A stretch of DNA of 39,038 nt from a virus: positions 1-39,038 of IMG/VR virus record IMGVR_UViG_3300036832_001233. One strand, 5' to 3'. Each line of letters begins with the position of its first letter. Position 1 is the first letter of the stretch. Under the pieces are notes generated by a model. The model was not told the origin of the DNA. It saw nothing but the letters and a program-made list of their open reading frames with translations, and searched no databases. A program made the translations under genes and the position numbers. Positions 1,004-37,339 of this stretch are shown one piece after another.

Positions 1004-2272
1004 TTGGCCACACTCGAGCGCACCGTTCGCCTCGCCCGACCGCACGCTGCCCAGGCCCAGATCCTGAAGGAAAAACGCCGCTACAACGTGGTCGCGCTCG
1101 GCCGACGCGCCGGCAAAAGCAAGCTCGCCCAGCAGCTCCTGGTCGAGTGCGCGCTCGAGCGAAAACCTGGCGGCTACTTCTGCCCGACCTACAAACTGTT
1201 GGAAGAATTCTGGCGCGAATTGAAGGTGGTGTTGCGCGAGATTATTTCGGAAAAATCTGAGCAGGAACATCGCCTTCAGGTCTACGGTGGTGGCACGGTC
1301 GAATGCTGGAGCATGGACACCGGCGACCCGGCCCGCGGGCGAAGATACGGCACGGTGGTCATCGACGAGGCGGCAATGGTGCCGCGCTTATCGGAGATCT
1401 GGGGTCAGGCCATCCGTCCAACACTTAGCGATTTCCAGGGCTCCGCCTGGTTCATGTCGACGCCGCGTGGACTGAACGATTTTTACACGCTGTACGTGCG
1501 CGGCGAGGATCCACTCGAGGACCAGTGGGCGGCGTGGCAGATGCCAACGTCGGTTAATCCGTACATCGCACCGGATGAAATCGAGTCCGCTCGCCATGAC
1601 CTGACGGAACGCGAATTTGCGCAGGAATATCTCGCGGAGTTTCTCAGCATTGAAGGTGCCGGAGTGTTCCGCAGTGTGCACGCGGTCGCTCGACTCCAGC
1701 CGGCGGGTCCGCTCAAAGGTCACGCGCACGTCTTCGGCGTGGACTGGGGCCGGTCCAACGATTACACCGTCGTCAGCGTGCTGGATGCCACCCTGATGGA
1801 GCAGCGTCTGGTAGATCGCTTTTCGCAGATTGAATACGAGTTCCAGACCGCCAGACTCCAGAAGATCGTGGACGTGTACCACCCGGTGCAGATCGTGGCT
1901 GAGGCCAACAGCATGGGCGGCCCGCTCGTCGAGCGCCTGCAGCGCGGCTGGGTCGACGCTATGGGAAGACGCCACGCGCCGCTACCGGTGTACGGCTGGA
2001 CCGCAACCAATGCGACCAAGGCGGCGATGGTGCAGTCGCTGGCGCTGGGCATCGAGCAGGGCCTGGTGACGTTGCTCGACGACCGTGTCCAGACGAGCGA
2101 GCTGCTGGCGTTCGAGTCGGAGACGACGCCGGGCGGGGTGACGCGGTACGGCGCGCCTGCCGGGATGCACGACGACACGGTTGTCGCCCTGGGGTTGGCC
2201 TTTTTAGGCGCACACCACGAGTCGAGTGGGCCCGCCAGGACGCGCTACGGATTCGCGGGCGGACGACGCTAA
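1004..2272 (+). CDS. terL: Large terminase subunit (ATPase-nuclease)
   Basis: This is the packaging motor. The ATPase domain has a Walker A motif GRRAGKS (about residues 33-39) and Walker B with VVIDEAAM (about 118-125), then S-T-P-R-G, a usual coupling-motif neighbourhood. The C-terminal RNase H-like nuclease has its first Asp in GVDWGRS (about 245), a middle acidic segment VAEANSMGG (about 299), and a final H-D-D-T-V-V-A-L (about 388). At about 422 residues it has the usual length. I chose the TTG at 1004, right after the terS stop, because upstream in-frame codons lie inside terS. The 3' end runs into the promoter-like repeat at 2269. It should package DNA through the portal encoded at 2919. 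Confidence 0.95.
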   Translation: MATLERTVRLARPHAAQAQILKEKRRYNVVALGRRAGKSKLAQQLLVECALERKPGGYFCPTYKLLEEFWRELKVVLREIISEKSEQEHRLQVYGGGTVECWSMDTGDPARGRRYGTVVIDEAAMVPRLSEIWGQAIRPTLSDFQGSAWFMSTPRGLNDFYTLYVRGEDPLEDQWAAWQMPTSVNPYIAPDEIESARHDLTEREFAQEYLAEFLSIEGAGVFRSVHAVARLQPAGPLKGHAHVFGVDWGRSNDYTVVSVLDATLMEQRLVDRFSQIEYEFQTARLQKIVDVYHPVQIVAEANSMGGPLVERLQRGWVDAMGRRHAPLPVYGWTATNATKAAMVQSLALGIEQGLVTLLDDRVQTSELLAFESETTPGGVTRYGAPAGMHDDTVVALGLAFLGAHHESSGPARTRYGFAGGRR

Positions 2273-2290
2273 TGTTGTGTATAGTCGCGC
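2269..2290 (+). promoter_or_regulatory. Promoter-like repeat, copy 1
   Basis: A 22-base sequence containing TGTGTATAGTCGCGC is repeated exactly at 2604-2625. It contains a good -10 hexamer, TATAGT (2280-2285), but no convincing -35 hexamer. It covers the last codons and stop of the large terminase and sits 13 bases before the ATG of the next gene, which has no visible ribosome binding site. Exact conservation outside homologous coding sequence points to a promoter or another DNA-level signal. Confidence 0.6.
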
Positions 2291-2303
2291 ACGACAACTA
2301 CTG

Positions 2304-2486
2304 ATGGACGACAGGCTGGCCGAGATTGAGTCGCGCCACAACGACACGTCGGAGGAGAACTGGCATCAGCCGTGGGACGATGTGGAGTGGCTCATTGCTG
2401 AGGTGAAGCGACTCCGCAAGGTCAAAGAAACGCTGGCCCTTGACTGCACTTCAGCGGTCACAGCGGCCCGAAGTAAAGTACACTGA
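2304..2486 (+). CDS. Small phage protein with helical DVEWLIAEVKRLR-type motif (60 aa)
   Basis: A short acidic helical protein with a WHQPWDDVEWLIAEVKRL segment. This pattern (E-I-x-x-R near the start, then D-V-x-x-L-I-x-E-V-x-x-L-R) recurs in many small phage proteins of unknown function. The ATG at 2304 lies 18 bases after the TATAGT box, with no Shine-Dalgarno sequence. The last 14 codons are written on DNA that is repeated almost exactly at 2829-2860, where it is read in another frame. The C-terminus is therefore set by the repeat rather than by protein conservation. Function unknown. Confidence 0.6.
   Translation: MDDRLAEIESRHNDTSEENWHQPWDDVEWLIAEVKRLRKVKETLALDCTSAVTAARSKVH
2445..2476 (+). 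repeat. Junction repeat, copy A (32 bp)
   Basis: This block matches 2829-2860 at 30 of 32 positions (core TGCACTTCAGCGGTCACA). Here it encodes the C-terminus of the 60-residue protein; in copy B the same DNA is read in a different frame. A further similar stretch follows (GTACACTG at 2478 and at 2901, then CCAATCG at 2491 and 2913). Conservation of DNA across reading frames suggests a recombination seam or a regulatory element. Confidence 0.8.
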
Positions 2487-2506
2487 GCCTCCAATCGCAT
2501 CAGTGC

Positions 2507-2577
2507 TCGCTCCTGGTTGAGCCTGAACCACCCTCTGTTCCAGGAACAAAGGAGGCTTCAGGCTCAACCAGGAGCGA
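2507..2577. repeat. Long hairpin: 21-bp perfect inverted repeat
   Basis: Arms 2507-2527 and 2557-2577 are perfectly complementary over 21 bases (left arm begins TCGCTCCTGG). The 29-base centre can fold further, since TGTTCC (2535-2540) pairs with GGAACA (2543-2548). The element is flanked by direct repeats of CAATCGC at 2492-2498 and 2594-2600. A T-run lies 11 bases after the stem (2589-2593), too far for a standard intrinsic terminator. It could be a small mobile hairpin element, a structured RNA, a DNA-level packaging or replication signal, or an unusual terminator. Confidence 0.8.
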
Positions 2578-2603
2578 CCAGACCTGCATTTTTCAATCGC
2601 GGC

Positions 2604-2625
2604 CTAATGTTGTGTATAGTCGCGC
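2604..2625 (+). promoter_or_regulatory. Promoter-like repeat, copy 2
   Basis: Exact 22-base copy of 2269-2290. TATAGT is at 2615-2620 and the ATG of the next gene is at 2630, only 9 bases further. A transcript starting at the normal distance from the -10 box would have almost no leader. No -35 hexamer is evident. Confidence 0.65.
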
Positions 2626-2629
2626 GGCG

Positions 2630-2860
2630 ATGAGCAACTGGCCGCCGACCGAGGCGCAATGGCAGCACTATCTCGATGAGCAGCGCGCCGACCGACGTCG
2701 CGGCATTGTGCAGTTAGGCGTGCTGCTGCTCGGACTGGTCGCTCTGGTGTGGCTGGTCAGCAACGCGACCGCTGACCAGTTCCTCGAGGTGCTGGTGGTC
2801 GCCGGCGTGCTCGCACTGCTGTTCTTCCTGCACTTCAGCGGTCACAACGGTCCGAAGTAA
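2630..2860 (+). CDS. Small protein with two membrane segments (76 aa)
   Basis: A hydrophilic N-terminus (MSNWPPTEAQWQHYLDEQRA) is followed by a basic stretch and two hydrophobic segments, about residues 26-44 (VQLGVLLLGLVALVWLV) and 51-69 (FLEVLVVAGVLALLFFLHF). It ends with a short polar tail. Class II holins have this shape, but so do many small phage membrane proteins, and its place between terminase and portal is not a typical lysis position. It may be a lysogeny- or infection-time membrane protein carried as an inserted cassette. The start at 2630 fits the promoter copy just upstream. Confidence 0.65.
   Translation: MSNWPPTEAQWQHYLDEQRADRRRGIVQLGVLLLGLVALVWLVSNATADQFLEVLVVAGVLALLFFLHFSGHNGPK
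2829..2860 (+). repeat. Junction repeat, copy B (32 bp)
   Basis: Partner of 2445-2476 (30/32 identical). Here it encodes the last residues (H-F-S-G-H-N-G-P-K) and the TAA stop of the membrane protein. Copy A reads the same DNA in another frame. Confidence 0.8.
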
Positions 2861-2866
2861 CCACGC

Positions 2867-2893
2867 CGGCCGTGAAACATCGGCCGTGAAACA
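2867..2893 (+). repeat. Tandem 13-bp repeat before the portal gene
   Basis: CGGCCGTGAAACA occurs at 2867-2879 and 2881-2893 with a 14-base period. It lies in the 58-base gap between the membrane protein and the portal start. The portal GTG has no clear Shine-Dalgarno sequence, so this stretch may carry the control signals. Function unknown. Confidence 0.6.
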
Positions 2894-2918
2894 CTGAGCG
2901 GTACACTGCGCCCCAATC

Positions 2919-4904
2919 GTGGCGAAGAAGTCGCTGCCGGCGCCGACCAGCGAGTACCTGCGCTCGCTGCAGACCGAGCTCGGCGAGCTGTACCTGACGC
3001 AGGACCGCGACATCGATCAGTACCGCGACCAGCGCGAGATGCGGACGCCGGCGCTCTCGGAAGCCGACAAGGACTACGTGCTCGTCTCGGTCGATCCGCG
3101 CGATCCCGACATCACCGAAGAGGCCTTCCAGCAACTGGCCATGCTGACGCTCGATCGGCCCAAACTCAGTATCGTCGGCGGCGAGGGCGACACCGCGCAG
3201 ACGATCGCCAGCAAGCTCGAGCATTTCACCGAGCGCACGCTGTGGCAATGCGGCACGCGCGAGCCCGGCTCGGACACCATGACGCAGGTCACCGACGCGT
3301 GCTTGAACGACGGCGGCGGGTGGGCCAAGATCCTGTGGACCGCCGACACCTGGGCGGCACGCTACGCCATCGCCGCACCGCAGCCCGACGATGCCTACGT
3401 CGCGTACCAGGCGTACGACAAGCAAACCGAGGATGCTAAGAAGAAGGCGGGCCCGCCGTTCTACTGGGGCTACGTCGATCCGCGGTCGGTGTATCCGCAG
3501 TGGAGCAACGGCGAGCTGTGTGAAGTGCTCGAGGTCCAGAACCTGCCGCTGCGGTCCGCCTTTCGCCGCTACCGTCTCGGGCTCGATCGCGACGGCAACA
3601 TCGTTCCCGAAGAGCTGGGTCAGACCGAGAACATCATCGAAGCCGCGCGCAATTCGCTGACCAACGTGACACTGCTCGAGCACTGGGACGACGTGTGGGC
3701 GTCCTGGGCGGTGACCGGCACCAACTTCAACGGCAACCAGACCGGCATGGTGGTCAAGCAGTTCCGCCACAAGTACCCCTTCGGCGTGCCATACGACTAC
3801 GCGCCCGGGCTGACGATGTCGCACTGGCGCAACCGCAAGGTCGGCTGGGGGATCGGCCGCACCAAGCTGTGGCTGGTCAAGTACCGCCAGTACCTCAGGG
3901 CTATGCACGCTCAATATGTCGCTCGCGATCTGCTGTCACCGCTGGTCACCTACGGCGACACGCCCGCGGTCGCGGTCATCGGCGACGACGGCTTGCCCAG
4001 GGAGCCGGACACGTCGGTGCATCCGGGCGAGATCATCAACCTGGCGCCGGGTCGGCAACTCCAGCGCATTCCGTACCCGGATGCCTCCACGTTAGAAAAA
4101 CATATGAGCCTGATCGACCAGGCCATCCGCGACCTGGAATCTCCCAGAGTCACCACGCTCTCAGGCATGGAAGGCGCGGGCTTCGCGATCAGCCAGGTAC
4201 TGCAGTACACCCGGACGCGCGTCGGTCCGGTCAGACATGGGCTCGAGCGTTTGCTCGAGGGCCAGACGCACAAGCTGTGGGAGCTCATCCGCTCGCGCGC
4301 CGGCGAGAAGGTCTGGGTGTTCTACGGCGGCGACGTCACCGACACCGCCAACCAGCAGGCGGTCGCCGAGTACATCGGCTTCGGGCCGAAGGACCTCGAG
4401 CGGCCAATGCACATTCAGTGGGACGTCCAGGCGCAGTTGCCCACCGACGAGATGATCATGGCCCGGTATGCGCACGAACGCCTCGCCGCGGGTACGTACG
4501 GCAAGGACGAAGCGGTGCGCTACCTGGGTGACAACCCCGACGAGATCCGCCGCAGCATTGCGAGGGACGAGATCAGGGCCTCGCCCGCGTACAAGCAGTA
4601 CCTGTACCAGGAAGTCTTCATGCAGGCCGGCCGCGGCGACCTGCTCGAGAAGGCACAGCAGGCCGAGCAGATGGCGCAGCAAGGCTCACTGCCCGCCGGC
4701 CAACCCAGTGCGCCGCAGCCCGGCGTCTTTGAGGGTGGCGGGCCGGGTGCAGGTGGCGTGCCTGATCTGGGAGCACTGGCCGCGGCGCCGAATGGCACCG
4801 GCGTGGCGCCACCGCCGTACGGCCAGGTCGTGGCCGGCGCCCAACAGCCAGGTGGCGTGCCGCCTGGAGGTCTGCCGGCCGCTGGAGAAACGATGAGGTA
4901 TTGA
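2919..4904 (+). CDS. Portal protein
   Basis: A 661-residue protein directly after terminase, the usual place and a usual size for a podovirus-type portal. The N-terminal part (residues 1-150) is acidic and helical. The middle carries beta-rich segments with many Trp and Tyr. Residues about 390-470 include long helices like the portal stem and crown (SLIDQAIRDLESPRVTTL, then the QVLQYTRTRVGPVRHGLERL region). The last about 90 residues are Pro/Gly/Gln-rich and end GGVPPGGLPAAGETMRY. Almost the same tail ends the next small protein. It should form the dodecameric DNA gate at one capsid vertex. I assign it from position, length and helix pattern rather than from a short signature. Starts with GTG. 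Confidence 0.85.
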   Translation: MAKKSLPAPTSEYLRSLQTELGELYLTQDRDIDQYRDQREMRTPALSEADKDYVLVSVDPRDPDITEEAFQQLAMLTLDRPKLSIVGGEGDTAQTIASKLEHFTERTLWQCGTREPGSDTMTQVTDACLNDGGGWAKILWTADTWAARYAIAAPQPDDAYVAYQAYDKQTEDAKKKAGPPFYWGYVDPRSVYPQWSNGELCEVLEVQNLPLRSAFRRYRLGLDRDGNIVPEELGQTENIIEAARNSLTNVTLLEHWDDVWASWAVTGTNFNGNQTGMVVKQFRHKYPFGVPYDYAPGLTMSHWRNRKVGWGIGRTKLWLVKYRQYLRAMHAQYVARDLLSPLVTYGDTPAVAVIGDDGLPREPDTSVHPGEIINLAPGRQLQRIPYPDASTLEKHMSLIDQAIRDLESPRVTTLSGMEGAGFAISQVLQYTRTRVGPVRHGLERLLEGQTHKLWELIRSRAGEKVWVFYGGDVTDTANQQAVAEYIGFGPKDLERPMHIQWDVQAQLPTDEMIMARYAHERLAAGTYGKDEAVRYLGDNPDEIRRSIARDEIRASPAYKQYLYQEVFMQAGRGDLLEKAQQAEQMAQQGSLPAGQPSAPQPGVFEGGGPGAGGVPDLGALAAAPNGTGVAPPPYGQVVAGAQQPGGVPPGGLPAAGETMRY

Positions 4905-29654: not shown

Positions 29655-29797
29655 CTGAGGTCTTCGGCCAGGCGATCACGCGCCGTGTCAGGATCGGGCT
29701 CGCGGATTTCAAGCGCTCGGGTCAGGGCGTTGATTGCGGCGACCAGGTCGCGCAGGCGTGCGTCGGCAGTGCCGCCGGGCAGGATGTCGATCAGCAC
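29651..29797 (-). CDS. Very small hypothetical protein (48 aa)
   Basis: GTG start at 29797 overlapping the upstream gene by 7 bases, stop overlapping the next GTG by 4. Begins MLIDILPGGTADARLRDLVA and continues as one charged helix to D-R-L-A-E-D-L-R. Double overlap in a coupled operon supports it despite its size. Function unknown. Confidence 0.6.
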   Translation of the reverse strand: MLIDILPGGTADARLRDLVAAINALTRALEIREPDPDTARDRLAEDLR

Positions 29798-30144
29798 GAC
29801 CCAACCCCGTGCGCCTCGTCGACCTCGTCGACGCCGTTGTGGCGGTGACAGCGGCAGTCGTCACACAGGGTGCGCCACGCTTCGGCGAGTTCCTGGTAGC
29901 AGTCCTTGCACACGCCGCCGCGAGACGTGAGCGTAGCCACCACCAGGCCGATGTCTTCCTTGACGGCGACGACGCCGGCCTCTTGCTGGAAGTAGAGCAA
30001 CGTGCCGGTGAGCAGGTGACGGTCAGTCTTCGACTCGTACTGGCGGCGTGGCTGGACGTAGGCAACATGCGCGGGATTGACGAAGACCTCGAGATAACCG
30101 ATGCCCACGCCATAGTCGAACGAGGTGAAGCGCTTGAGATTCAT
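29791..30144 (-). CDS. First gene of the minus operon: zinc-binding-like protein (117 aa)
   Basis: The N-terminal 85 residues are beta-rich (VGIGYLEVFVNPAHVAYVQP). The C-terminus has a C-x-x-C, then C-x-x-C-x-C-H-x-H pattern (CKDCYQELAEAWRTLCDDCR), likely a zinc site. As the first gene after the divergent promoter it should be made first from this operon. The ATG lies 7 bases after a GATAAT box, so the message may have no leader. It may be an early regulator; no family recognised. Confidence 0.6.
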   Translation of the reverse strand: MNLKRFTSFDYGVGIGYLEVFVNPAHVAYVQPRRQYESKTDRHLLTGTLLYFQQEAGVVAVKEDIGLVVATLTSRGGVCKDCYQELAEAWRTLCDDCRCHRHNGVDEVDEAHGVGSC

Positions 30145-30196
30145 CTACATCATTATCCACTGATACGTGGTGATACGCAACCTATAATAGGTGGCG
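30145..30196. promoter_or_regulatory. Divergent promoter/operator between the minus operon and the xis-int genes
   Basis: Plus strand: TGATAC (30161-30166), 16 bases, then TATAAT (30183-30188), 8 bases before ATG 30197. Minus strand: TTGCGT, 17 bases, then GATAAT (complement of 30152-30157), 7 bases before ATG 30144. The two promoters overlap, so transcription in one direction should hinder the other. GTGATAC-like units repeat in TGATACGTGGTGATACG (30161-30177) and could bind a regulator. Confidence 0.65.
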
Positions 30197-30421
30197 ATGT
30201 TCACGTACGCGCTTCAATCTGCAACAATGGGCGTGATGCCCGACGACGACGACGAGCTGCTGACCGTCGACCAGGTCGCTCGCACCCTGAAATTGCATCC
30301 CGAGACGATCCGCCGCTGGATTCGCGAGGGGCGTCTCAAGGCCGTCAAGCTCGGCAGCGACCGCTCCGGCTTCCGCGTGCGCGCCTCCGAGGTCGCGCGC
30401 CTGACCGAGACGCCATCGTGA
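30197..30421 (+). CDS. xis: Excisionase-like / MerR-type HTH protein (74 aa)
   Basis: The segment LLTVDQVARTLKLHPETIRR followed by WIREGRLKAVKLGSDRSGFR is the classic HTH_17 excisionase/MerR-like winged helix (residues about 17-60). Such proteins next to a serine integrase commonly act as recombination directionality factors or regulators. Start choice: ATG at 30197 lies 8 bases after TATAAT; GTG 30191 and ATGs at 30229 and 30238 are alternatives, none with a ribosome binding site. The stop overlaps the integrase GTG. Directionality function is inferred from position. Confidence 0.75.
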   Translation: MFTYALQSATMGVMPDDDDELLTVDQVARTLKLHPETIRRWIREGRLKAVKLGSDRSGFRVRASEVARLTETPS

Positions 30422-32172
30422 CCTGGGCGACTGACCCGGCGGAGACTGCGGCATCCTATGAACGGGTGAGCCGCCAGGTGCAGGCTCTGTATGGCCACGG
30501 TCTGAAGCGCCAGGAACGCAACGTCGACGAGATGGCGCGCGAGCTCCGCGTCATCCTGCCCAGCGATCTGCGCTTTCGCGACGGCGTCGACGACAACGCC
30601 AGCGGCGCGGCAATGAGCCTGCCCGCGCTCGATCGCGTCGTTGAGCTGGCGCGTGCTGGCCGCTTCAAGACACTGCTGGTCGCTGGCACTGATCGGTGGA
30701 CACGCGAGTCGGGCAAGGGCATGTGGCTCACCCGTCAGGTGCGCGAGTACGGCGTTCGCGTCGTGTGGGGCGATCTGCCCGACGTACCCGATCCCGGTGA
30801 CGGCAACCCGTATGCGGCGCACTGGCGTCAGAAAATGGAGTCAGAGGCCTTCCAGAGTGCGGAGTTTGAACGCGCGCTCATTCGCTGGCGAACCATGAAC
30901 GGACGTCGTGACAAGGCTGCCGCGGGCCAGGTGGTTGGCCAGGGCACCGCGCCGTACGGGTATGTGTACGTGCGCGACGACACGCCGAAGCATCGTGTTT
31001 GCGGACTCGAGCCAGACAGCAAACAGGCAGCCATCGTCCGCGACCTGTATCAGCGGGCGCTGCGCATGTCGCTCGATGCTCTGCTGGACTGGCTCAACGC
31101 CGCGCGCGTCCCACCACCAGGCGCGCGGCGTACCTATCGCAAGCCGCAGTACAAGGCCAGCGCTGGCCAACTGTGGAGCGGCCACACGCTCTACAACATC
31201 CTGACCAGTCGGCTGTATGTCGGCGAGTACACCTACCACACCACCGGCGGCCAGGTGCCGGCCATCGTCTCGGAGTCGACGTTCGAGGAGGTCCAGAGCG
31301 CGCTCAGCGGACGACGCGGGCAACGCGGAGCTGGACGCCGCGGCACCCAGGCAGACGAGTTTCTGTTTCGTGGCCGGCTGGTGTGTGCACCGTGCTCCGC
31401 CGCGGTCGGCCGCCGGGTCACGCTGCACGCCAAACGCGCCAACAGTGCGGGCGAGCGCTACTACGCGTGTCCGCACCGCTGGCAGCACCACACGCGCTCG
31501 GTCAAGCAGATCGGCCTCGTCTGTCCATTGCCGAGCATCCGCGCTGGGCTACTCGAGCAGCAGGTCTGGGACGCCATCATCGCCGCCTGCCTCGAACCCG
31601 AGCGCTTGCGGGCCGAGCTCGCCGACGCGCGCGCCCGGCGCCGACAGGACGATCGGGGCCGCGAGGACCGGCTGGCCGCGATCCAGGCCACCATCGCACA
31701 GCAGGAGCGCCTGCTCGCGGTGCACGTCAAACGCATCGCCGAGCTCGAAGCCGAGGGCACGCCTGAAGCCGACGTAGAGATGCCGCTCCAGATGACCGAA
31801 CGCGATCAGGTTCGCTCACGGCTCGTCAGTCTCAAGCGCGATCTGCGCGAGGCCGAGGCGATGCCTGGTCCTGGGCTGAGTGAGGCCGAAAGCGACGCGA
31901 TCGAGCAGCTAGCCGACGTGGTACGTACGGCCGGTGCTGCGGCGACGCCCGCCGAGCGACGCCAGGCGGTCGAGATCCTGGATCTGCGCGCCACGCTCGG
32001 CGAAGGCAGCGAGTCGATCCTCGTGCAACTCAGGCCGAGGCGTGCGATCCCGATGGAGTGGCGCGGTGCGATCAGCGTGCGTGTGGCTCAGCCGCAAAGT
32101 AGCGATTGCGACGCGTCGTTCTTGAAATTCACGTTGCAATTACTACTGTCGCGGCTCGACTTCGCGGCTTGA
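30418..32172 (+). CDS. int: Large serine integrase (584 aa)
   Basis: I start at the GTG at 30418 that overlaps the xis stop; the frame is open upstream but on the opposite side of the promoter. The resolvase-like catalytic domain has SYERVSRQVQ with nucleophile Ser (about 18) and DRWTRESGKG as the conserved DR-x-x-R region. The recombinase domain starts near GTAPYGYVYV (about 176). The zinc ribbon uses VCAPC (about 323) and YYACPHRWQHH (about 348). A coiled coil (about 411-447, RLAAIQATIAQQERLLAVHV) and a C-terminal extension follow. It integrates phage DNA by cutting attP and attB with a 2-base crossover. The 3' end may overlap a small minus-strand gene. Confidence 0.95.
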   Translation: MTWATDPAETAASYERVSRQVQALYGHGLKRQERNVDEMARELRVILPSDLRFRDGVDDNASGAAMSLPALDRVVELARAGRFKTLLVAGTDRWTRESGKGMWLTRQVREYGVRVVWGDLPDVPDPGDGNPYAAHWRQKMESEAFQSAEFERALIRWRTMNGRRDKAAAGQVVGQGTAPYGYVYVRDDTPKHRVCGLEPDSKQAAIVRDLYQRALRMSLDALLDWLNAARVPPPGARRTYRKPQYKASAGQLWSGHTLYNILTSRLYVGEYTYHTTGGQVPAIVSESTFEEVQSALSGRRGQRGAGRRGTQADEFLFRGRLVCAPCSAAVGRRVTLHAKRANSAGERYYACPHRWQHHTRSVKQIGLVCPLPSIRAGLLEQQVWDAIIAACLEPERLRAELADARARRRQDDRGREDRLAAIQATIAQQERLLAVHVKRIAELEAEGTPEADVEMPLQMTERDQVRSRLVSLKRDLREAEAMPGPGLSEAESDAIEQLADVVRTAGAAATPAERRQAVEILDLRATLGEGSESILVQLRPRRAIPMEWRGAISVRVAQPQSSDCDASFLKFTLQLLLSRLDFAA

Positions 32173-32639: not shown

Positions 32640-32787
32640 GACGCCGGCATCAAATGTTGCAGTAGCGTTTACGTGCCGCTAACGTGGTGGTTACAGCTTT
32701 GGAATAGCTAAGGGACTGGCGCAGGGGCAGTTGCGCTGGCCCGACGAAGACCTGCACCCTCCGCCGAGCAACCGCGAGCCCACAACG

Positions 32788-32808
32788 ATAGAACACGTGT
32801 TCTATAGT
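32788..32808 (+). promoter_or_regulatory. 18-bp perfect palindrome overlapping an early promoter
   Basis: ATAGAACACGTGTTCTAT (32788-32805) is a perfect palindrome whose right end is part of TATAGT (32803-32808). A protein bound here would cover the -10 box. No -35 match is visible at the expected position. An in-frame GTG (32815) follows 6 bases after TATAGT. This is probably the operator-promoter that starts rightward early transcription. Confidence 0.7.
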
Positions 32809-32814
32809 ACTCGT

Positions 32815-33387
32815 GTGGCGGGAAGGGTCATGGCATGGCGGCTGTATCCCTTGTCCCCTCGCCGGGGACAACTTTCAAATGTATCCGGGTTTGTCGTGCC
32901 GGAGCGCATGCCGGTGGATGAGCATGGAGAGATGGGCTCGCGGGATGACCTGGTTGCGCGGCTGCTGGATGTCCTGGAACTGCAGGCGCGCGCACTCAGT
33001 CGCGAATCAGTAGAGCGAGAGAACGTCCTCCATCTTCCCAACGGAGTGCTGCGGCGCTTGAACGAGGACCCTGCCGCCCTGCGCGAGTTCTATGACCAGG
33101 CGATAGGCACCTACCAGCCGCCCAAACCCAAACGTCCTGGGCACCGGCCCAACGAGAAGGCGATGCGCGAATGGCCCGCCTTTCGCGCGAAGTACCAGAA
33201 GCTCGAGCGTGAGATTCGCCGCGATCTGTCTCTTACAGATGAAGTCGAAGTCAGTCGCGAGATGATGTTCGCCAATGGCGGCGAACACCCCAAGGCCATG
33301 CTGGATCACATGCTCTGGCACGGACTCACGCGCGACCAGTGGCCGCCCTTGACCTGGCCCGAGGAGTCTCCCAACCCGCTGGCGTAG
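32815..33387 (+). CDS. First rightward early gene, hypothetical (190 aa; start uncertain)
   Basis: Possible starts are GTG 32815 (6 bases after TATAGT, leaderless), ATG 32830 (GAAGGG just upstream) and ATG 32908 (GGAG just upstream). The part after 32908 looks securely protein-like: an acidic helix (RDDLVARLLDVLELQARALS), then a Pro/Lys-rich basic stretch (QPPKPKRPGHRPNEKAMREW) and a helical end with many Trp. No family recognised. Being first after the operator, it could be an antirepressor or early regulator (inference). The stop codon is part of the repeat at 33387. Confidence 0.6.
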   Translation: MAGRVMAWRLYPLSPRRGQLSNVSGFVVPERMPVDEHGEMGSRDDLVARLLDVLELQARALSRESVERENVLHLPNGVLRRLNEDPAALREFYDQAIGTYQPPKPKRPGHRPNEKAMREWPAFRAKYQKLEREIRRDLSLTDEVEVSREMMFANGGEHPKAMLDHMLWHGLTRDQWPPLTWPEESPNPLA

Positions 33388-33462: not shown

Positions 33463-33645
33463 ATGCGAGTACACGTCGACCTGCCCGACGAGACCATCTC
33501 CGGCTTGCGGCGGGTGATGCTTATCGTCGATCCGAACACGTCGGTGCGTGAGCAGGCGGCGCGCATCCTCATTCGCGAAGTTCCCAACGAGTTGGCGCGG
33601 CTCGGATTCGCCAATCCGCCCGAGCCCATCGCCGAGGTCGCGTGA
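33463..33645 (+). CDS. Small protein, possibly ribbon-helix-helix (60 aa)
   Basis: MRVHVDLPDETISGLRRVML at the start (a strand V-H-V-D-L-P, then a helix) and SVREQAARILIREVPNELAR, which recall ribbon-helix-helix DNA-binding proteins, though the spacing is not typical. It follows the operator-like repeats and its stop overlaps the next GTG. Possible small regulator. Confidence 0.55.
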   Translation: MRVHVDLPDETISGLRRVMLIVDPNTSVREQAARILIREVPNELARLGFANPPEPIAEVA

Positions 33646-33917
33646 GCGACGCCGAGTCGGAGCGCGCCCGCTCGCGGTTCTTCGCCTGGAAGACGACGCA
33701 CGCGCACCTGGCCGACGACCCTGCCGAGGTGTGGGCCGCGGCGTGGCGCGCCGGCGCGTGGGACGCGCTCAAACAGAACACCACCCTCGGCCTGAACCTG
33801 GCGCAGATCACCCAGCGGCTCGAGGACCTGGCGCAGTTGTACAGCGACGTCGGCGAGGAGCGCCGCATCGACCGCGAGCTCGAGGAGGTCAGCGCGTACT
33901 ACCGGAGCGAGCCATGA
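33642..33917 (+). CDS. FFAWK/WAAAW-motif protein, paralogue 2 (91 aa)
   Basis: Residues about 13-42 (FFAWKTTHAHLADDP, VWAAAWRAGAWDAL) match the minus-strand gene at 29424. The rest is a long charged helix (LEDLAQLYSDVGEERRIDRE). Two copies in one small genome suggest a useful early function or a cassette exchanged between operons. GTG start in a GTGA overlap; ATG of the next gene overlaps its stop. Confidence 0.65.
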   Translation: MSDAESERARSRFFAWKTTHAHLADDPAEVWAAAWRAGAWDALKQNTTLGLNLAQITQRLEDLAQLYSDVGEERRIDRELEEVSAYYRSEP

Positions 33918-34357
33918 CCCTGGTCAGCCGGGGCCTGAGCTATCCCGCGATACGCCAGCGCCCGTTCGTGCCGCTGAACAAAGCGCAGCTCGTCCTGCTG
34001 GCGGGTGCGGGCGAGGAGGAGTTCACGCGCTGGGTCAAAACCCGCGCCCATTGCTACGGCTGGAATGGCATCCATACGCGCGACAGCGAAGGTGTCATCG
34101 AAAGCGTGCACACGCTGCGCATGGACGGCTTCTGCGAGGGCCTCGGCATTCCAGACTGGGAGTTCTGGCACGAGGGCTTCAAGCAGTCCTTCAAGGCCGA
34201 GCTGAAAGGCGCGAGCGGCGAGCTCCACAAGTATCAGAAACGCGAGATCGCGTCGATGCGCCTGGGCGGCCAGACGGTGGTCGTGTGGTATCCGCGTGAC
34301 GCGCCGATTGTCGAGCAGGTATTCCGCTACGGACTGGAGGCACTGCAGCAACGCTGA
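33914..34357 (+). CDS. VRR-NUC-like PD-(D/E)xK nuclease (147 aa)
   Basis: The ATG at 33914 overlaps the upstream stop. A helical N-terminal part contains QLVLLAGAGEEEFTRWVKTR. The nuclease core is GLGIPDWEFW (Asp about 80), then FKAELKGASGELHKYQKREI (E-x-K about 95-97, followed by the conserved Gln) and GGQTVVVWYPRDAPIVEQVF. This order (G-x-P-D ... E-x-K ... Q ... V-W-x-P-x-D) is that of VRR-NUC nucleases, which cut branched or flap DNA. It may process recombination or packaging intermediates with the Bet protein. Confidence 0.75.
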   Translation: MTLVSRGLSYPAIRQRPFVPLNKAQLVLLAGAGEEEFTRWVKTRAHCYGWNGIHTRDSEGVIESVHTLRMDGFCEGLGIPDWEFWHEGFKQSFKAELKGASGELHKYQKREIASMRLGGQTVVVWYPRDAPIVEQVFRYGLEALQQR

Positions 34358-34644
34358 TGGCCAGGACCACGCTGATTCGGGTGAGTTTTTCCCGCCAGGT
34401 TTCGGATGGCAACTATGGCAGCGAGACGATCCGTCACGAGGTCGAGGTGACCGCAGACGACGGGCAGGACCTGAGCTCGGAGGAGAGCATCACCGCGCTC
34501 GACCTGTGCCGACGCCTGGTGCACGCCGAGCTGGCACGCTCGCCGAACTGGTCGATCCGCCACGCCATCGAAGAGCCGAAGACGCTTTCGACTGCGGAGC
34601 TCGCGCCATCGAACTATGACGATGACGAGGACCTCCCGCTGTGA
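34357..34644 (+). CDS. Hypothetical protein (95 aa)
   Basis: A beta-rich start (MARTTLIRVSFSRQVSDGNY), a helix in the middle (SITALDLCRRLVHAELARSP) and an acidic tail ending N-Y-D-D-D-E-D-L-P-L, like the acidic C-termini of single-stranded DNA-binding proteins. No family recognised. Overlaps at both ends (TGATG, GTGA). Confidence 0.55.
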   Translation: MARTTLIRVSFSRQVSDGNYGSETIRHEVEVTADDGQDLSSEESITALDLCRRLVHAELARSPNWSIRHAIEEPKTLSTAELAPSNYDDDEDLPL

Positions 34645-34829
34645 CATCGGACTTCGTCTGGCCCGACATCGGCGATGACGAGCTGCCCGATCGCTGCCAA
34701 CAGTTCGGCTGCACACATGCGGCCGAGACCTGGTGTCCGTTGTGCCGCGCGTACTTCTGCCACGTCCACGACGAGCTGTACCCGGTGCGGCGACATGACT
34801 GCCTGCGCGGCAAGGCTGAGGCTGCCTGA
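34641..34829 (+). CDS. Small zinc-finger protein (62 aa)
   Basis: Eight likely ligands in a cross-brace-like order: RCQQFGCTHAAETWCPLCRA, then Y-F-C-H-V-H and R-R-H-D-C. This resembles compact double-zinc fingers such as B-box/AN1 types. Host-protein or nucleic acid binding is plausible. GTG start in overlap; stop overlaps the next ATG. Confidence 0.65.
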   Translation: MTSDFVWPDIGDDELPDRCQQFGCTHAAETWCPLCRAYFCHVHDELYPVRRHDCLRGKAEAA

Positions 34830-35029
34830 TGGTGGAGGGGCGTGTGCTGCCGGGCGTGGACATCGACGCGACGGCGCCGGTGACGCAGTGTCGCTCGTGC
34901 GGCGCGCTGATCTGGTGGGGTCGGACCGCGGCCGGCAAGCGCTGCTGTTTCGACGTCGTCGACGGCGCCAGGACGGCGATCACCCACTTCTCGACCTGTC
35001 CGGACGCCCGCGGCTGGAGCAAGCGCTGA
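34829..35029 (+). CDS. Small zinc-ribbon-like protein (66 aa)
   Basis: C-R-S-C (about 21-24) and K-R-C-C-F (about 38-40), then HFSTCPDARGW near the end, give a likely single zinc site with beta strands between (ALIWWGRTAAGK). Second Cys-rich gene in a row. Function unknown. Confidence 0.6.
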   Translation: MVEGRVLPGVDIDATAPVTQCRSCGALIWWGRTAAGKRCCFDVVDGARTAITHFSTCPDARGWSKR

Positions 35030-35623: not shown

Positions 35624-36114
35624 TGGCGCGCGCGACGGCGTTCGTCGGCGGTCTGCTGTGTGGTGTGTTGCTGGGCACGGCCGTGCTGGTCAGCCACGCC
35701 GACCCCGCAGAGGCGGACGTGAAGGCCGCGGCCGAGCAGGTCGGCGTCCAACCCGCGGACCTGCTGGGCGCGATGCTCAGCACCGGGCAGTCGAACCCGT
35801 TCGCTTATTTACGGTCGGTCGGCGAGCTGCCGCCGCTGCAGGTCCTGAGCAAGCCACCGCCGGTGCCGCCGGTAGTGTCGAGTTCGCGCGTGGCGTGCAT
35901 CATTGGCGTCGAGTCGAAGGGCGACCCAACCGCGCGCAATCGCAGTGGTGCGAGTGGCTTAGGGCAGTTTCTGCCTGGGACGTGGGCCTCGACGCCGCAG
36001 GGGCGTGCTGGGCTGTCGGTCTTCAATCCGGCCGCCAACCGCGCAGCGATTCAGTACATGCTCGACGCCGGGCGCGCGCGCGAGTTCGATGCGGTCCGGT
36101 TCTACGGATGCTAA
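35623..36114 (+). CDS. Secreted lysozyme/transglycosylase-like protein (163 aa)
   Basis: A signal peptide or anchor (residues about 5-26, TAFVGGLLCGVLLGTAVLVS) is followed by a polar linker. A lysozyme-fold domain (about 85-163) has catalytic Glu in CIIGVESKGDPTARN and the SGASGLGQFLPGTWASTPQG segment typical of goose-type/SLT and Rpf-like enzymes. It should cut or bind peptidoglycan outside the membrane. It sits among early genes, away from the lysis genes at 26796, so entry, superinfection exclusion or a signal-arrest endolysin are all possible. Confidence 0.75.
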   Translation: MARATAFVGGLLCGVLLGTAVLVSHADPAEADVKAAAEQVGVQPADLLGAMLSTGQSNPFAYLRSVGELPPLQVLSKPPPVPPVVSSSRVACIIGVESKGDPTARNRSGASGLGQFLPGTWASTPQGRAGLSVFNPAANRAAIQYMLDAGRAREFDAVRFYGC

Positions 36115-36124
36115 GGGAGGATGC

Positions 36125-37141
36125 ATGACTCAATCGGTCGCGATCGAACGCGCGGAGCCCGCTGGCCTCGCGCTGCACGTCTTCGGCGCCGAGCGCGTCG
36201 CGGTGCTCAAGGAGCAACTGTCGCGCGGCTGGAAAGAGGCGATGACCGACGCCGAGCTCGAGCACATCGCCCTGGTCTTCCAGCGCACGCGCCTCGACCC
36301 GCTCGCCAAACCGCCGCAGATCTACTGGATCAAACGCTACGACTCAAAGCTGCGCAGGGAGGTGATGACCGGTCAGCTGGCCATCGACGGGCTGCGGCTG
36401 ATCGCCCAGCGCTCGCGCGAGTACGGCGGTCAGCTGGGCCCGTTCTGGACCGCCGACGGCAAGGAATGGGTCGATGTGTGGCTGCGTGACGAGCACCCGG
36501 CCGCGGCGAAGGTGGGTGTGCTGCGCAAGGGCTTCCGCGAGCCGGTCTGGTCGGTGGCGACCTGGAAAGAGTGGGCGCAGCACCAGACCGAGTATGACCG
36601 CACCGGCAACCCCACCGGCAAGAAGATCCTGTCGCAGTTCTGGGCGTCGATGGGCGCCAACATGCTGGCCAAGACCGCCGAGGCGATGTCGCTCAAACGC
36701 GCCTTCCCGCAGGAGACCAACGACCTGGAGCTGGCCGCCGTCGACGCCGAGTGGCGCCAGCAGGAGACCGAGCACGCGCGGCGCTATAGCGAGATTTTCT
36801 CCGAGGAGGACGTGGTGGTGTCCGGCGATCGGCTGGTGGACCGCACCACCGGCGAGGTCATCAGGCCGCGGGAGCTCACCGGTCCCGCGGTGTCCGACCA
36901 GGGTGGCGCGGTGGACTCCCCAAGGCCATCGTCGCCACCACTGGTGGACAAGTACAAGCGCAACCGCGAGCTCATTGCGCGCGCCCGCGAGTTGGGCGTG
37001 TCCGGCTATGACCCGCTCAAACTGGGGCAGACGGAGGACGTCGTCGACGCGGCCAACCTGGACCTTGAGGACCGCATCGCGCGCGCCGAGTGGGAGATCG
37101 GGGAGGTGCAGCGGCAGAAGGCGAAGGAAGGACTGCTGTAG
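36125..37141 (+). CDS. bet: Phage recombinase Bet/RecT-type single-strand annealing protein (338 aa)
   Basis: GGGAGG at 36115-36120 sets the ATG at 36125. Residues about 1-200 hold the Bet-family pattern: TDAELEHIALVFQRTRLDPL, then QLAIDGLRLIAQRSREYGGQ, WVDVWL, H-P-A-A-A-K-V-G-V-L-R and MLAKTAEAMSLKRAFPQE. The C-terminal 130 residues are charged and disordered, ending in a helix. Such proteins anneal complementary strands for recombination and replication repair. No partner exonuclease of the lambda Exo type is visible; the nuclease at 33914 may act nearby. Confidence 0.9.
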   Translation: MTQSVAIERAEPAGLALHVFGAERVAVLKEQLSRGWKEAMTDAELEHIALVFQRTRLDPLAKPPQIYWIKRYDSKLRREVMTGQLAIDGLRLIAQRSREYGGQLGPFWTADGKEWVDVWLRDEHPAAAKVGVLRKGFREPVWSVATWKEWAQHQTEYDRTGNPTGKKILSQFWASMGANMLAKTAEAMSLKRAFPQETNDLELAAVDAEWRQQETEHARRYSEIFSEEDVVVSGDRLVDRTTGEVIRPRELTGPAVSDQGGAVDSPRPSSPPLVDKYKRNRELIARARELGVSGYDPLKLGQTEDVVDAANLDLEDRIARAEWEIGEVQRQKAKEGLL

Positions 37142-37339
37142 ATGCCAGCGGAAGCGCGAGCAGCCAACGAGGAGGCGGTTGAGCTACAGCCGTGGGCTCA
37201 ACGGGCGTTTGAGCGTGCGTATCAACACGCTGCGCGTCGGGGCCGCTGTTCACGCGCTGACTTCTGGGCTGGGTACCGCGCAGCGCTGATCGAATTGCAG
37301 GTCTGGTCGCAGTTCCGCATCCGACCGGAGCGCGAATGA
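37142..37339 (+). CDS. Small hypothetical protein (65 aa)
   Basis: ATG immediately after the bet stop; stop overlaps the next ATG. Helical, with ELQPWAQRAFERAYQHAARR and DFWAGYRAAL, a pattern common in small phage proteins that begin with F-E-x-x-Y or A-F-x-x-G-Y. Function unknown. Confidence 0.55.
   Translation: MPAEARAANEEAVELQPWAQRAFERAYQHAARRGRCSRADFWAGYRAALIELQVWSQFRIRPERE

Follow-up and report, generated by a model that had tools for sequence, protein, structure and literature searches.

Paired ends around unrelated small genes between the terminase and portal genes of an uncultured phage probably reflect unit doubling and gene replacement

Morons are DNA insertions that separate genes which are neighbors in related phages, and typically consist of an open reading frame with a promoter and a terminator (PMC3029335). 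Phage mosaicism arises by illegitimate recombination or by relaxed recombination of the Rad52-like/RecT type (PMC3945230, PMC3029335). Rad52-like recombinases, RecT included, drive mosaicism in temperate phages (PMC3945230), and De Paepe et al. describe mosaics that are mainly homology-driven. Conserved boundary sequences occur at module junctions (cited in PMC3029335). The start-associated sequence (SAS) of Cluster K mycobacteriophages is a 13 bp sequence present many times per genome and conserved across phages (PMC3203893).

The window, meaning the whole stretch of 39,038 nucleotides that was analyzed, has about 650 bp between its terminase gene and the gene at the portal position, and two units lie inside this interval. 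Unit 1 is ordered as a 22-mer, orf1, a 33-bp block, and a TACACT remnant. Unit 2 is ordered as a 22-mer, orf2, the 33-bp block, GTGAAAC repeats, and TACACT, and it is followed by the portal gene. A near-perfect 77-nt palindrome separates the two units. The protein at the portal position was searched against Pfam and PHROG and matched neither; its homologues occupy the same place in 25 IMG/VR loci with 62–79% identity. The features are as follows.

1013–2272, + strand: large terminase subunit (PHROG 2 terminase, E 3e-37; Pfam Terminase_6N/6C)
2269–2290, + strand: 22-mer, copy 1, with a −10-like TATAGT at 2280–2285
2291–2443, + strand: foreign patch that comprises 13 nt from the end of a gene and then the beginning of orf1, identical to part of L108, a contig of another phage
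2304–2486, + strand: orf1, 60 aa, its first 47 codons those of a 55-aa L108 gene and its last 13 residues reading the block out of frame
2444–2476, + strand: 33-bp block, copy 1, what is left of an orf2-type 3' end (LHFSGHSGPK*), in a different frame from orf1
2478–2497, + strand: remnant of the portal promoter region (TACACT...CCAATCG) lacking the GTGAAAC repeats, aligning 18/20 to 2901–2919
2504–2580, + strand: palindrome with 38-nt arms and a 1-nt loop, a strong RNA hairpin and possible terminator
2604–2625, + strand: 22-mer, copy 2, bearing what is probably a copied terminase stop (CTAA) and TATAGT
2630–2860, + strand: orf2, 76 aa, an orphan with two apparent membrane segments as read from the sequence
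2828–2860, + strand: 33-bp block, copy 2, the final ten orf2 codons and stop
2867–2907, + strand: portal (late) promoter-like element, a pair of CGGCCGTGAAACA repeats spaced 14 bp apart and then TACACT
2919–4904, + strand: portal protein, named from its position and by the sequence-only reading
36005–37141, + strand: RecT-like single-strand annealing protein (PHROG 2780, E 2e-38), inside a segment 95% identical to L108

The sequence-only reading had described two units with matching DNA at either end, a CCAATCG-type stretch after each block, and unrelated genes inside, and all three observations hold. The copies of the 22-mer are identical (22/22), the block is best defined as 33 bp with 31/33 identical positions, and each occurs exactly twice in 39 kb with up to 3 mismatches allowed, where shuffled sequences are expected to give 0. 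Downstream of the blocks, GTACACTG is present at 2478 and at 2901, with the 18/20 alignment beyond. The 2901 copy belongs to the portal promoter and is accompanied by tandem GTGAAAC repeats that are absent from the copy at 2478. The interiors of the units give a DNA local alignment score of 16 against a shuffle mean of 16.2, which is no similarity. The terminase stop codon (TAA, 2270–2272) lies within the first 22-mer, whose initial C is the third base of the last terminase sense codon (C-TAA). Because the copy at 2604 also has CTAA, the second 22-mer probably derives from a terminase end. TATAGT lies 9–18 nt upstream of the start codons in both copies, and a consensus scan called neither a sigma-70 pair nor a −35 element; we infer a promoter function for the 22-mer from its sequence. 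Relatives of orf2 were sought, including in Pfam and PHROG, and none was found. A weak antisense match to orf2 in the related contig L002 (34%, E 0.001) was taken as chance similarity between hydrophobic stretches.

The block was also said to be read in different frames, which is correct, and to be under selection as DNA, which does not follow. In unit 2 it coincides exactly with the final ten codons of orf2 and their stop (LHFSGHNGPK*). In unit 1 its frame differs from that of orf1, and a stop directly precedes it in its own frame. The unit 1 block is a frame-shifted relic that truncates an acquired gene and is not evidence for selection at the DNA level, since a recent common origin explains both the coding tail and the relic. 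A 3' signal had been proposed for the block. Its RNA fold was no better than that of shuffled sequences, and this role was rejected. A 15-nt match to the block at L108 4297–4311, with an NGPK* ending, was judged to be chance.

A protein search with orf1 identified L108, and the same searches gave one 54% relative and otherwise weak family matches. Window positions 2289–2443 are identical to L108 4986–5140 (155/155), the sole long match, of which 2289–2290 are two chance bases. The ends of the patch coincide with the ends of the repeats. In L108 the patch consists of the end of one gene and the first 47 codons of the 55-aa gene inside an operon. The 55-aa gene has its full frame there and overlaps its neighbor on each side by TGATG, so the L108 context is the native one. 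In the window, the last eight L108 codons are gone, and the 13 residues that replace them run into the block and the promoter remnant. Neither the 22-mer nor the orf2 tail was found beside the patch in L108, and the homology to L108 at the patch junctions is at most 2 nt on the left and none on the right. The copied ends differ at 4/75 positions compared to 0/155 for the patch (Fisher p = 0.011), and the patch is therefore probably younger than the split of the copied ends. Unit 1 (2269–2603) has a G+C content of 0.567 compared to 0.66 ± 0.036, the lowest value among 335-nt stretches taken at 100-nt steps along the window.

In other respects the two phages are distant, with 26% identity between their terminases. 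They have further segments in common at 33616–33923 (95%), 33915–34832 (97%), and 35885–37146 (95%). Exchange between L108 and the window phage is real and recent because these segments, spanning 33.6–37.1 kb, are shared at 95–97% identity. The common DNA includes the gene for the RecT-like annealing protein, and the window phage encodes both this protein and an integrase; the RecT-like protein is a candidate recombinase for such exchanges. A large integrase/invertase-like protein (812 aa) is encoded at 29734–32172 and suggests a temperate phage with a serine-type integrase. A palindrome around CTATAGT at 32772–32821, near the start of the early region, is possibly an operator-promoter. Of ten related terminases in genome contigs, eight belong to bins labelled Chloroflexi or dominated by them. 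Seven of the terminase-match bins are named Chloroflexi and one each Bryobacterales, Acetobacteraceae, and Acidobacteria; the Bryobacterales bin contains the best individual match (48%). The host of this soil phage is probably a member of the Chloroflexota, which is a lead and not proof.

The terminase–portal site is variable among relatives. Across 38 genomes with both genes in view, the window included, the gap ranges from 14 to 3,209 bp with a median of 818; seven relatives have a gap of 14–96 bp compared to 649 bp in the window. The gap cargo with Pfam matches comprises HNH endonucleases, a ParB-like protein, and DUF5131, and the remaining scanned gap ORFs had no Pfam match. The site thus gains and loses genes, and this variability, together with the 155/155 foreign DNA, supports the proposal of a gene-acquisition site without the conserved seams that had been attached to it. 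None of the 37 related gaps contains paired seams, and no second gap contains two such units. HNH-type genes lie in the gap of L090 (4143–4990), L083, and L086, with Pfam HNH_3 in L083 and L086. L090 has a diverged second portal start beyond its HNH-like gene, as after a homing-type insertion.

The layout of the portal promoter-like element recurs upstream of the portal gene in several relatives and 0 times in shuffled sequences. Two GTGAAAC repeats, direct or inverted and 12–14 bp apart, are followed by a TACACT-type −10 at window 2867–2907 and in L002, L020, L086, L090, L100, L104, L106, and L107, where the element lies upstream of the portal gene or inside the terminase–portal gap. GTGTGAC repeats take the place of GTGAAAC in L084, L088, L092, L093, and L101, and the repeat type may indicate the specificity of a phage regulator.

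The palindrome between the units has arms that are 87% matched, and no other close inverted repeat in the window approaches it in length. The hairpin region (2486–2604) has a dG of −58.5 with a z of −7.2, and a TTTTT tract at 2589–2593 starts 8 nt past the stem. A consensus terminator scan did not call the hairpin; its structure makes a terminator possible. No true homologue of the palindrome was found. A mobile element was rejected, as its three IMG/VR matches lie in coding DNA and are due to chance, and Rfam returned sub-threshold microRNA-like matches that reflect the hairpin shape. Integron attC sites end in RYYYAAC...GTTRRRY. The palindrome holds GTTGAGC...GCTCAAC, the reverse order of these ends in a comparison made by eye, and on that comparison the locus does not resemble an integron gene cassette.

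We consider it likely that one unit was doubled at an insertion-prone (moron) site and that one copy then had its gene replaced from a co-infecting L108-type phage. The ancestral unit would have run from the 22-mer with the terminase stop and promoter, through orf2, to the portal promoter. The unit would first have been doubled, either through tandem duplication or because it was joined to the equivalent locus of a sibling phage. About 153 bp from the L108-type phage would then have replaced the gene body of the upstream copy, through illegitimate or RecT-mediated recombination without recourse to homology at the seams. Illegitimate joining fits the near absence of junction homology with L108 at least as well as RecT-type recombination does. 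The 22-mer and the block would be leftovers of the older copy and not dedicated exchange signals. With its C-terminus altered, the captured orf1 would be driven by the 22-mer promoter, and transcription of it would probably stop at the hairpin that follows. Because no intermediate genome was found, with either a single unit or the orf2 unit alone, we infer both the duplication and the sequence in which events took place. Against this explanation stand the palindrome between the units, for which it does not account, the near absence of junction homology with L108, where De Paepe et al. find mosaics to be mainly homology-driven, and the 94% identity of the 33-bp copies, which suits a union of sibling alleles no less than a duplication. 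In that sub-case, alleles of siblings with different genes were joined head to tail by one illegitimate crossover without a separate tandem duplication. The 2/33 differences between the blocks and 2/20 in the next stretch, the terminase stop that comes along with the second 22-mer, and inter-unit sequence that belongs to neither unit all agree with such a crossover, but no sibling with the orf1 allele at the locus was found and the DNA that precedes the second 22-mer does not clearly represent the end of a terminase gene. We hold this course possible while leaning against it.

The other explanations account for less of the data. The interchangeable cassettes proposed by the sequence-only reading would have the 22-mer and the block as conserved seams, one supplying a promoter and the other a 3' signal, between which small genes are swapped repeatedly by homologous recombination. 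Unrelated genes do lie inside identical ends, the foreign DNA sits exactly between the seams, and a RecT-like recombinase is encoded. However, the donor L108 lacks both seams, paired seams occur in no related gap, and the acquired gene is truncated and runs out of frame into the block. The suggested search of relatives for the 22-mer and block around different genes found no seams in other genomes: no other IMG/VR contig matched either sequence exactly or carried a synonymous-codon version of the block, in searches that may omit records very near the window, and the phage records searched gave distant terminases only and no DNA match. Repeated swapping is thus unlikely. A dedicated gene-capture site, with the terminase-end promoter and the resident gene end as seams and a RecT-type protein dropping gene fragments of co-infecting phages under the promoter, is very unlikely. 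A single recent duplication without gene exchange, the condition that the earlier reading had set against itself, would, with both genes diverged from one ancestor, account for the near-identical ends, but the interiors are unrelated and the 155/155 donor match of the unit 1 interior refutes it, leaving it next to no probability. An assembly or library chimera, in which the patch was joined to the contig artificially, is favored by the metagenomic origin of both contigs and by junctions that appear on no second contig. Against it, the 0–2 nt overlap at the junctions is too short for an assembler overlap, the several longer and slightly diverged segments common to both phages indicate real exchange, and the artifact would need to end exactly at two repeats. 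We judge a chimera improbable.

The locus captures a moment of phage gene exchange with unusual clarity: the donor fragment and its borders are exact, and relics of the resident gene remain on both sides. It shows that no cassette machinery is required for different genes to come to lie between paired ends, which is a caution against calling repeats seams. As a variable locus in an uncultured phage group, it is worth mining for accessory genes. Like morons, it has extra small genes with promoter-like −10 sequences and a hairpin between terminase and portal genes, the insertion lies between genes that are adjacent in relatives, and the base composition of unit 1 differs from that of the phage. 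Unlike morons, it is a tandem pair with both ends in common, and one unit is a hybrid with a truncated acquired gene. The recent exact exchange, the encoded RecT-like protein, and junctions without donor homology resemble illegitimate or RecT-type mosaicism, whereas the very short patch of about 153 bp inside a duplicated unit sets the locus apart. Identical short sequences surround different genes as boundary sequences do, but within one genome, and the donor and relatives lack them. A repeated short sequence just upstream of the starts of unrelated small genes recalls the Cluster K SAS, but here there are two copies in one genome. The locus documents gene exchange that is phage mosaicism of a known kind and not a new cassette system.
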